Part shown: one piece after another, positions 34,314 through 36,450 of the stretch
Position numbering within the stretch: the stretch's first letter is position 1
Layout: every line of letters starts with the position of its first letter
Source of the DNA: Cupriavidus malaysiensis
Lineage (GTDB): Bacteria; Pseudomonadota; Gammaproteobacteria; Burkholderiales; Burkholderiaceae
Length of the DNA: 64,000 nucleotides
NCBI RefSeq assembly: GCF_001854325.1
Contig: NZ_CP017755.1
Span: 2,170,001-2,234,000, forward strand
Reading direction: 5' to 3'
The notes under the pieces: generated by a model
Seen by the model: the letters and a program-made list of their open reading frames with translations, nothing else
Told to the model about the DNA's origin: nothing
Database searches by the model: none
Program-made: the position numbers and the translations under genes

Positions 34314-34853
34314 CTAGAAGCGGCACGCCTCGGCAGTGACGAGCTGCGCGAAGGCGCTGCCGAGCGTGCGGTTGTGGTGCGCGATGATGGCCGCCGCGGG
34401 CAGGTCCGGCGTGTCCATGCAGGTATGCGCGTCGGCCACCAGCACCGGCCGCAGGCCGAGATCGGCCGCGGCGCGGCAGTTGGCGTCGACACAGTACTGC
34501 GTCTTCATGCCGACGATCACCAGCTCGCCGATGCCGGCCTGCGCGAGGCGCGCCTCCAGCCCGGTGCCGACGAAGCCGCTCGGCCGGGTCTTGTCGAACA
34601 CGATGTCGTGTGCCGCATCCACGTCGAGGCGCGGCAGCAGCTGCCAGGCCGGGCTGCCCGGCGCGATCGGCGAGCCTGCGGGTCCGGTATGGCGCGCGGC
34701 GAGGACCGGCGCGCCGGCGGCACGCGCGCGCGCGGCAAGCCGGTTGATGCGGGCGAGCACGCGCTCGCCTTCGTAAGGCGGCTCGTGGCCATCGAAGAGG
34801 CCGCACTGCATGTCGAGGATCAGCAGCGCGCGGCGGGCGGAAGGTTCTGGCAT
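34314..34853 (-). CDS. Isochorismatase-like cysteine hydrolase
   Basis: The protein has 179 residues. The Asp-Lys-Cys triad of the family is visible: Asp14 in LLILDMQCGLFD, Lys in VFDKTRPSGF and Cys in GMKTQYCVDANCRAAADLG. Family members hydrolyse amides or ureides (nicotinamidase-like) or ether bonds; substrate unknown. AGGAG lies six bases before the ATG. A leader peptide ORF with seven consecutive Thr codons and an intrinsic terminator lie in its 5' region, so expression is probably attenuation-controlled (inference). Confidence 0.85.
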   Translation of the reverse strand: MPEPSARRALLILDMQCGLFDGHEPPYEGERVLARINRLAARARAAGAPVLAARHTGPAGSPIAPGSPAWQLLPRLDVDAAHDIVFDKTRPSGFVGTGLEARLAQAGIGELVIVGMKTQYCVDANCRAAADLGLRPVLVADAHTCMDTPDLPAAAIIAHHNRTLGSAFAQLVTAEACRF

Positions 34854-34917
34854 GTGTTTCTCCTGCTCATGTCGTCTGGGTGGGGGGCATGCCCCGCGTT
34901 GTCCCGGCATGGACGGA

Positions 34918-34954
34918 GAAACGAAAAGGCCCCGTCCATCGCTGGCGGGGCCTT
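34918..34954 (-). terminator. Intrinsic terminator in the leader of the cysteine hydrolase gene
   Basis: On the minus strand AAGGCCCCG (34954-34946) pairs perfectly with CGGGGCCTT (34934-34926) around an 11-base loop, and the stem is followed by TTCGTTTC, giving TTTTCGTTTC from its base: a hairpin with a U-tract. It lies about 65 bases upstream of the hydrolase ATG, so it would stop transcription before the gene. Confidence 0.75.
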
Positions 34955-34986
34955 GAAACAGTATGCCTTCCGACTCGATACCGTCC

Positions 34987-35070
34987 TCACGACCCGCCTG
35001 GCGCGGTCGTGGTGGTAGTGGTCGTGATCGGGGAAATGGCGCGCAGCGCGTCGGAATGCATGAGCGCCAT
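34987..35070 (-). CDS. Candidate threonine-rich leader peptide (attenuator)
   Basis: This is a 27-codon ORF (24 from the second ATG at 35061) reading MALMHSDALRAISPI, then seven consecutive Thr codons (35025-35005), then APGGS and a TGA. It ends 33 bases before an intrinsic terminator. GGCGGG just before the stop (34998-34993) can pair with CCCGCC in the terminator's left arm and loop (34949-34944), a possible antiterminator. This is the layout of amino-acid attenuators such as the thr leader of enterobacteria. No good ribosome-binding site is visible. A different frame is His-rich but has no stop before the terminator. Confidence 0.5.
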   Translation of the reverse strand: MALMHSDALRAISPITTTTTTTAPGGS

Positions 35071-35232
35071 GATGCGCGTGCCGGCGACCCGTCGTCAATC
35101 CCCCTGCGAAGCGCACGCCGCCTCGCCACGGCATGCTTCGCCTGCGGCTTACGCACGCTTCGGCACTGAGAAATTGCGTGAACGCGTGCCGCGCTCAATG
35201 ATGCCGTACACCGACTTCCACGAAAGACATCG

Positions 35233-36450
35233 ATGAGCGCAATCCTCCAGGGCATCAAGGTGCTCGACCTGACCCGCGTGGTCGCTGGCCCCTGGGCCAC
35301 GCAGAACCTGGCCGACATGGGTGCCACCGTCTACAAGATCGAGAAGCCGGGCGACGGCGATGACACGCGCAAGATGGGGCCCTTTCTCACCGACGCGCAA
35401 GGCAGGACCAGCAATGACTCGGCCTTCTACCTGTGCTGCAATCGCGGCAAGCAGTCGATCACGGTCGACATCTCGCGGCCCGAGGGCGCCGAGCTGGTGC
35501 GCCGGCTGGCCGCGCGCTGCGACGTGGTGGTCGAGAACTACAAGGCGGGCAGCCTGCGCAAATACGGCCTCGACTACGACGCGATCCGCGCGCTGCGGCC
35601 CGACATCATCTATTGCTCGGTGACCGGCTTCGGTCCCGACGGCCCCTACGCCGCGCGCCCGGCCTACGACTTCATCCTGCAAGGCATGGCGGGCCTGATG
35701 AGCACCTGCGGCCAGCCCGACGGCAGCGCCGGCGCCGAGCCGATGCGCACATCGATCCCCATCACCGACATCCTGACCGGCCTCAACGCCAGCGTGGCCC
35801 TGATGGGCGCGCTCTACCACCGCCTCGCCACCGGCGAGGGCCAGTACATCGATGCCGCCATGCTCGATGCCTCGGTGGCGGCCAACGGCCATCTCGGCCT
35901 CGGCTACCTGATGACGGGCAAGGTCCCGGGACGCGCAGGCAACACCAACCCGGTGGCGGCACCGTCCGAAGTATTCGCCTGCCTCGACGGCCACCTGATC
36001 GTGGCGGCCGGCAACAACGGCCAGTTCGCGGCGCTGTGCAAGGTGCTGGGCTGCGCCGAGCTGCTCGACGACGAGCGCTTCCGCGAGAACACCGGCCGCG
36101 TGGCCAACCGTGCCGCGCTGCGCGATCGCATCGGCGCCTGCGTGGCCGGCTGGCATGCGGCGGAACTGCTGTCCACGCTGGAACGTGCCTTCGTGCCGTG
36201 CGGCCCGATCAATGCGCTCGACGCTGTCTTCGCCGACCCGCAGGTGCGCCATCGCGATCTGCTGCTGAAGCTGCCGCATGGCCGCGGCGTGGATGCCCCC
36301 TCCCTGCGCAGCCCGCTGCGCTTCTCCGCCACCCCGGTGGAAATGCGCGCGCCGCCGATGCTGGGCGAGCATACCGAGGCGGCGCTGCGCGCGGAACTGG
36401 GACTTGGCGACGCCGAGCTGGCGGGGCTGCGCGAGCGGGGGGTGTTGTAG
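35233..36450 (+). CDS. Class III CoA-transferase (CaiB/BaiF family)
   Basis: The protein has 405 residues. The N-terminal GIKVLDLTRVVAGPWATQNL and YKIEKPGDGDDTRKMGP, the Asp nucleophile region GQYIDAAMLDASVAA, and the C-terminal PLRFSATPVEMRAPPMLGEH are the family landmarks. Such enzymes swap CoA between acids, for example formyl-, succinyl- or carnitine-CoA. A role in activating the acid metabolised by the neighbouring carboxylase cluster is possible, but it is encoded on the opposite strand and separately. The ribosome-binding site is weak (GAAAGAC). Confidence 0.92.
   Translation: MSAILQGIKVLDLTRVVAGPWATQNLADMGATVYKIEKPGDGDDTRKMGPFLTDAQGRTSNDSAFYLCCNRGKQSITVDISRPEGAELVRRLAARCDVVVENYKAGSLRKYGLDYDAIRALRPDIIYCSVTGFGPDGPYAARPAYDFILQGMAGLMSTCGQPDGSAGAEPMRTSIPITDILTGLNASVALMGALYHRLATGEGQYIDAAMLDASVAANGHLGLGYLMTGKVPGRAGNTNPVAAPSEVFACLDGHLIVAAGNNGQFAALCKVLGCAELLDDERFRENTGRVANRAALRDRIGACVAGWHAAELLSTLERAFVPCGPINALDAVFADPQVRHRDLLLKLPHGRGVDAPSLRSPLRFSATPVEMRAPPMLGEHTEAALRAELGLGDAELAGLRERGVL

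Follow-up and report, generated by a model that had tools for sequence, protein, structure and literature searches.

Control of biosynthetic operons is the textbook role of amino-acid attenuators, and a locus of Cupriavidus malaysiensis raises the question of what such a device would be doing in front of a lone hydrolase gene. On the minus strand of the window (the whole stretch of DNA analysed here, 64,000 nucleotides, positions 2,170,001 to 2,234,000 of contig NZ_CP017755.1) a short reading frame with a run of threonine codons is followed by a terminator and by the gene of an isochorismatase-like cysteine hydrolase. A first-pass annotation, made from the letters alone, had read this arrangement as a candidate threonine attenuator, or else as the source of a stand-alone small RNA or the remnant of a moved operon. 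The best explanation of the whole, to which we give a probability of roughly 0.8, is a threonine attenuator with protective-looking outputs.

The leader and its hydrolase gene

The hydrolase gene (34314..34853, minus strand) encodes 179 amino acids and is solitary, with a divergent CoA-transferase gene on one side and a convergent patatin gene on the other. Its product is assigned by PF00857 (121.6 bits against a cut-off of 27), by a conserved triad and by its predicted fold. Asp14, Lys88 and Cys121, which we take to be the Asp-Lys-Cys triad motif of the isochorismatase-like hydrolases, are each at least 97% conserved in 120 homologues among the matches listed; at E <= 1e-20 there are 531 homologues among 4211 candidates. 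The structure model (pLDDT 92.7) has its best PDB matches in 2a67, 3oqp and 5ha8, and over the 50 matches listed its identity with isochorismatase-family structures is 16-32%, which indicates no substrate. The protein also misses the NCBIfam equivalog cut-offs of PRK11440 (53.5 of 195 bits), BiuH (49.6 of 370), RutB (38.1 of 377.95) and nicotinamidase (31.2 of 174).

Upstream of this gene, a scan of 34700-35400 on either strand gave a sole promoter-like site, the sigma-70-type TTGACG-18-CATCAT on the minus strand (35069..35098). The ATG from which a 27-codon leader had been proposed (35070) overlaps the -10 element of this promoter; a second ATG (35061) lies 7 nt downstream of the -10, in the same place as the leader ATG of relatives. 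The frame of the first-pass annotation thus holds and its start does not: judged by promoter distance and relatives, the leader is probably MHSDALRAISPITTTTTTTAPGGS, 24 codons plus stop (34987..35061, minus strand). Since the distance from ATG to promoter is the same in the relatives, its RNA probably begins without a 5' UTR, i.e. is leaderless. The isoleucine codon and the seven threonine codons that had been reported are present (35028-35005, with the seven putative control codons at 35005..35025 and the stop codon at 34989-34987, all on the minus strand). Runs of at least seven threonine codons occur once in the window and in none of 150 first-order and 60 second-order Markov simulations. 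The antisense frame (34880-35236, plus strand) contains a valine run ending in isoleucine (VVVVVVVI), which may be a by-product of the threonine run.

The proposed terminator with its U-tract, between leader and hydrolase, is borne out by folding and covariation. This hairpin 3:4 (34924..34954, minus strand) occupies 34954-34928 and is followed by TTTTCGTTT, with four T reaching 34924 and 70 nt between these and the hydrolase ATG at 34853. Segment 3 (CCCGCC, 34944..34949) is common to the terminator and to the antiterminator, whose 5' side is segment 2 (GGCGGG, 34993..34998), as the first reading had suggested for these same two motifs. A third element, absent from that reading, is the hairpin 1:2 (34988..35011, minus strand), in which CACGACC (segment 1, 35011-35005) pairs with GGTCGTG (34994-34988) and which shows covariation; segment 1 lies inside the threonine codons, and the leader stop codon overlaps the end of the stem. 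A simple consensus scan of 34700-35400 did not find the terminator at the leader, and the 241-nt fold of the leader region alone is unremarkable (z -0.94), so the evidence for the feature is that of conservation and covariation; taken on these, the leader feature in the window is real and above chance. Among the 4 Rfam matches up to E 10 in 34700-35300 there is no T-box, and 14 related leader loci gave 0 gathering matches of any Rfam family, T-box included.

Conservation and the genes behind the leader

At E <= 1e-40, 14 of 200 family genomes, among them that of the window, have an orthologue of the hydrolase, and the leader stands before all 14; model match and protein match are 27-59 nt apart, their positions having been compared by eye, together with an ORF scan. 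As a control we used paralogous loci, at most 47% identical, being the 30 from a 40-genome search minus the window and one orthologue (in G023). Over the 400 nt preceding the match, which include coding sequence where the protein match starts inside the gene, none of these 28 has a short ATG ORF rich in threonine, and their maximum is at most 3 threonines in 8 codons versus 4-7 at the 14 orthologues.

Conservation in relatives, which the first-pass annotation had named as a check, is seen in the window's genus, Burkholderia, Paraburkholderia, Undibacterium and Pseudomonas. A search of 60 genomes with the leader DNA gave four relatives of the window's genus, all with leader and hydrolase, the hydrolase frame being interrupted in one of them, G023; the leader also precedes the hydrolase in records of Burkholderia cenocepacia and Paraburkholderia. 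Among five further hydrolase loci it is present in two Pseudomonas, in Undibacterium pigrum and in one gammaproteobacterium; at the Sinosporangium locus (28% identity) it was not seen by eye. Model R1 has a match in 19 of 399 genomes of the order. At the 13 loci examined besides the window's, a threonine leader was found in L050-L058 and L067 and none in L059, L068 and L069; the R1 matches L060-L066, L070 and L071 gave no match on comparison with the hydrolase. In a 369-genome sample of the class, run with R1 and stricter filters, the best of 12 other genomes (L072, E 4.5e-7) does not have a leader. The range that we claim, the class-wide search being shallow, is Burkholderiales, Pseudomonas and a single plasmid of Erwiniaceae. 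In the genome of the window the threonine leader occurs once. The Erwiniaceae plasmid (581 kb, Duffyella gerundensis, L084) carries a hydrolase orthologue of 60% identity behind a leader that is threonine-rich by eye, with a terminator without T tract, and may be a sign of horizontal spread. Decayed copies also exist: the hydrolase frame is interrupted at L162 and in G023 (L002/L033/L087), and the terminator of L035 (G043) has no T tract.

The target set of the leader is wider than the single hydrolase of the first reading. At L052, L055 and L057 the leader precedes, instead of the hydrolase, a threonyl-tRNA synthetase (ThrRS) of 403-406 amino acids that consists of catalytic and anticodon domains, with no editing domain. 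This short ThrRS was found in 12 of 200 family genomes at E <= 1e-150, with the leader in 12 of 12 (in one, G959, the leader is at one contig end and the gene at another); at that threshold it was not found in the window's own genome. For a broader view we used model R2, whose matches, weak ones included, fall in 149 of the 349 genomes searched from the family and in 116 of 199 from the Pseudomonas genus to which L044 belongs; the loci examined, 111 from the family and 110 from Pseudomonas, are 221 and not all of the matches. R2 was trained on threonine leaders and its loci are therefore a biased sample, a bias from which the 200-genome searches with hydrolase and short ThrRS are free; moreover, related loci are not independent of each other. 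The leader ORF was picked by its promoter alone, threonine-rich was defined as at least 4 Thr in 8, and genes were assigned by one reference each, with the domains checked in examples.

By these definitions a threonine-rich leader precedes the hydrolase at 37 of 39 family and 73 of 73 Pseudomonas loci (110/112; the promoter score is below 8 in 10 of the 73), the short ThrRS at 32 of 33, MFS transporters at 3 of 3 and 2 of 2, and ABM-domain proteins, which are oxygenase-like, at 5 of 5. The combined figure is 152/155, and at the other three loci (L106, L151, L162) no leader ORF was obtained. In one genome (G1085) there are copies for each of MFS, hydrolase and ABM, and in another (G905) for both hydrolase and short ThrRS.

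Several loci deserve separate mention. In the MFS proteins of L092 and L094 an N-terminal stretch resembles by eye the N-terminus of the short ThrRS, as if a transporter had replaced the synthetase under the same leader; taken together, L092-L094, L096 and L100 have an intact threonine leader before either an MFS gene with such a ThrRS-like N-terminus or only a remnant, and at L096 and L100 there is no intact short ThrRS or MFS gene behind the leader. Most ORFs of the 17 unclassified loci were inspected: L138, L144, L096 and L100 are orphan threonine leaders, and the rest have no recognised target. L138 (G897) has two leader matches about 655 bases apart on the same strand, the first without a recognised gene directly downstream.

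Matches before GNAT and DUF2917 genes were rejected as threonine leaders, their leader peptides not being threonine-rich (0 of 49 leader ORFs). Those of the GNAT genes are instead Met-rich (at least 3 Met in 8, start excluded) at 8 of 9 family and 24 of 25 Pseudomonas loci, i.e. 32/34, and the 15 DUF2917 leaders are neither Thr-rich nor Met-rich. Leaderless Met-rich leaders such as MNMMCSSMTASGGP were noted before GNAT genes at L163, L165, L166, L171, L173, L174, L179, L181 and L183, at L283, L289-L291, L294, L297, L299 and L302, and at others; judged by its codons, this looks like a methionine counterpart of the threonine leader. The DUF2917 genes (the domain was checked in L176, the other loci being assigned by similarity) follow short leaderless ORFs in whose peptides an ...INHPMRAI-like sequence recurs (L168-L170, L172, L175, L176, L180, L182, L184, L187-L192).

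Alternative pairing and the proposed switch

R2 was run on 93 sources, namely loci with a hydrolase, short ThrRS, MFS or ABM gene, without the orphan leaders and the later Pseudomonas set, and matched 92 of them, the exception being the Duffyella plasmid. In alignment A5 of 92 leaders, 94.5% of the cells are paired, against 26-51% when the partners were slid. The covariation score is 0.198 versus 0.116 for shuffled alignments, with 0 of 500 shuffles as high, a comparison to be read knowing that A5 was fitted to the modelled structure and that related sequences readily exceed such shuffles. Pairs changed on both sides number 9 versus 6.8, which is weak evidence, 23 of 500 shuffles reaching 9. 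The covariation comes from 1:2 (for example, C-G to G-C in 24 sequences) and from 3:4; the antiterminator 2:3 hardly varies and contributes almost none.

The effect of a stalled ribosome was modelled by folding 90 leaders (two of the 92 have no ORF) with an assumed footprint of 12 nt, the window's leader being entered as its 27-codon version, in the same frame. With the RNA made up to the end of segment 3, the GGCGGG-CCCGCC pairing of the first-pass annotation (34998-34993 with 34949-34944 in the window) and its equivalents exceed p = 0.5 at one or more threonine codons in 89 of 90 leaders, in 13 of 90 when ribosome-free, and in 0 of 90 with the ribosome at the stop codon. The mean probability of 2:3 is 0.85 at the middle threonine codon, 0.14 without a ribosome and 0.00 at the stop; it is 0.10 at the last threonine codon of segment 1, where segment 2 is already partly under the ribosome. 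The window's own values are 0.78-0.83 at five of the seven threonine codons, 0.15 at the first and 0.01 at the last. In the leader of Undibacterium (L045) the modelled antiterminator fails to form. Among the 822 codons where a stalled ribosome favours 2:3, 486 are threonine codons, against 175 of the 1398 others. The leaders share their promoter geometry as well: in 84 of 90 there are 6-7 nt between the best promoter-like element and the ATG, a somewhat flattering figure since spacings of 4-9 nt were admitted and the top-scoring one was kept, and 87 of 90 agree with TTGACA at 5 or all 6 positions.

Full-length equilibrium folding mostly fails as a view of this switch. The terminator dominates there, with a mean probability of 0.97 ribosome-free, 0.98 at the stop and 0.91 over the threonine codons, and the antiterminator exceeds 0.5 at some threonine codon in just 13 of 90 leaders. 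The mutually exclusive hairpins for which the first-pass annotation had suggested folding are therefore seen in RNA up to segment 3 and are missing from most full-length equilibrium folds; the decision of the switch must accordingly be assumed to be kinetic.

In the mechanism that we propose, transcription would start at or beside the leader ATG, and a ribosome would be on the threonine run while the polymerase makes segments 2 and 3. With Thr-tRNA plentiful, the ribosome would reach the stop codon just behind segment 2 and cover that segment, so that 3:4 would form and transcription would terminate. Were the charging of Thr-tRNA to fail, the ribosome would wait on the threonine codons with segment 1 covered, 2:3 would pair, and the gene would be transcribed. 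The threonine attenuator first suggested for this locus is thus upheld by its conserved threonine run, hairpins and target gene and by covariation. We consider it very likely that the leader is a leaderless, ribosome-mediated attenuator responding to Thr-tRNA charging: the sequence, its conservation, the pairing and the association with these genes are shown, and the start site, translation of the leader and induction are predicted.

What the leader may sense

A charging sensor with a spare synthetase, a transporter, a hydrolase and an ABM-domain protein as outputs is most simply read as a response to ThrRS poisoning. At about even odds we would infer that poisoning of this enzyme is the signal and that its poison, or some related compound, is what the hydrolase destroys. 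Natural inhibitors of ThrRS include borrelidin, from Streptomyces, and obafluorin, with the protein ObaO occurring in Pseudomonas fluorescens, Chitiniphilus shinanonensis and Burkholderia diffusa (excerpts of PMC11252418). Obafluorin was considered as the specific trigger; nothing in the analysis indicates it.

Alternatively, a plain shortage of threonine could be sensed, with the hydrolase freeing or recycling an amide that relieves it. Classical attenuators do sense amino-acid supply, and the isochorismatase-like family includes amide hydrolases (RutB, biuret hydrolase and N-carbamoylsarcosine hydrolase). Such nutritional control nevertheless appears unlikely: spare ThrRS, transporter and ABM outputs do not make threonine, and a threonine-biosynthesis gene (thr, ilv) was recognised downstream in none of the 221 loci, 17 of them unclassified. 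The same lack of a recognised biosynthetic gene, with the leader present at 14 of 14 hydrolase orthologues found, leaves the idea that it is the remnant of a moved operon unsupported.

A second possibility is that the stress sensed is not a drug but a lack of zinc, or metal damage of ThrRS, and that a second ThrRS and its partners restore charging, much as the Anabaena T2 ThrRS is induced by low zinc (excerpts of PMC4787780). We find this improbable. It leaves the hydrolase, MFS and ABM outputs unexplained, and all of the best 120 of 7951 short-ThrRS homologues have the motif M-x-C-P-x-H (MSCPCH in 104 of them, MNCPGH in the E. coli-type ThrRS), keeping the cysteine that binds zinc in E. coli ThrRS (residue roles from excerpts of PMC9880928 and PMC11252418).

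Still less weight falls on a terminated leader RNA or Thr-rich peptide acting in trans, after the manner of rnTrpL and peTrpL of Sinorhizobium meliloti. There too the attenuator RNA starts with the leader ATG, with Trp codons and before trpE(G) in that case, and peTrpL acts in multiresistance (excerpts of PMC7298713). Here, however, the peptide N-termini differ between loci, it is the control codons and the RNA switch that are conserved, and leader and gene remain in cis. Action in trans would also be compatible with attenuation, and the stand-alone terminated RNA of the first reading may be a by-product of the attenuator. That we are dealing with a chance ORF and an ordinary terminator, or a decaying remnant, is hardly credible. 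Some copies have decayed (the terminator of L035; L096 and L100, where no short ThrRS or MFS gene is left intact), but against such a reading stand the covariation, the conservation of the leader between Cupriavidus-like genomes and Pseudomonas, the dissociation of Thr and Met leaders by target gene and the chance control for the threonine run.

If a threonine attenuator with protective-looking outputs is the right reading, attenuator logic has been attached repeatedly to unrelated genes of this kind, and a hydrolase family without assigned function gains a directly testable trigger. It suggests that failing tRNA charging is possibly read as a sign of chemical attack, and offers, in the leader, a means of searching for defences against inhibitors of synthetases, obafluorin and borrelidin among them. 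More tentatively, at somewhat less than even odds, one might see in Pseudomonas and Burkholderiales a Thr-tRNA-charging alarm, in which a spreading leaderless attenuator drives counter-measures against natural ThrRS inhibitors (isochorismatase-like hydrolysis, a spare ThrRS, transport and an ABM-domain protein, three of them in one genome), with its Met-rich sister driving GNAT acetyltransferases against failing methionine-tRNA charging. If this were true, the leaders would be beacons for inhibitors of aminoacyl-tRNA synthetases and for the enzymes that destroy them.

In literature of which few subscription papers form part, neither an isochorismatase-like hydrolase nor a second ThrRS was seen behind a threonine leader, which is weak evidence of novelty, and the excerpted main text of a genome-wide attenuator survey (PMC2965389) has neither 'isochorismatase' nor 'threonine'. 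Some known systems are similar in part. The streptothricin hydrolase SttH, set beside the window's hydrolase by its isochorismatase-like class only, inactivates an antibiotic, its native substrate being doubted, and the excerpts describe no attenuator (PMC11702664). ObaO is, like the short ThrRS, a second synthetase, and protects from a ThrRS inhibitor, but it extends to residue 637 and has Ser at the place of Gly463 (excerpts of PMC11252418 and PMC10619133). The short ThrRS has only the catalytic and anticodon domains and retains the Tyr-Gly of the obafluorin site in 118 of the best 120 of 7951 homologues, on which the idea that the short ThrRS carries the ObaO resistance residue was rejected. 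This result, like the single leader of the window's genome and its lack of a short ThrRS at E <= 1e-150, weighs against our best explanation.

Among attenuators, the Rfam family RF00506 (Thr_leader) is the E. coli thrL, ahead of the thr biosynthesis genes. It shares with our leader a Thr/Ile codon run and a terminator; the window's leader precedes a hydrolase instead, is probably leaderless, and scores 19.7 bits, short of the gathering score of 55. The thrZ gene of B. subtilis is a second ThrRS gene under transcriptional antitermination, as the short ThrRS would be, but through a T-box RNA and not a leader peptide. The closest precedent, by analogy, would be trpRS1 of Streptomyces, an auxiliary antibiotic-resistant TrpRS that Vecchione and Sello reportedly described in 2010 as being under ribosome-mediated transcriptional attenuation. 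There the attenuator answers a failure of tRNA charging with an additional synthetase that is proof against the inhibitor, and a second synthetase under its cognate leader is likewise found in relatives of the window, at all 12 of the 12 short-ThrRS genes; the differences are that trpRS1 concerns tryptophan, whereas the present leader concerns threonine, belongs to Proteobacteria and has several unrelated outputs, mostly the hydrolase and not a synthetase.
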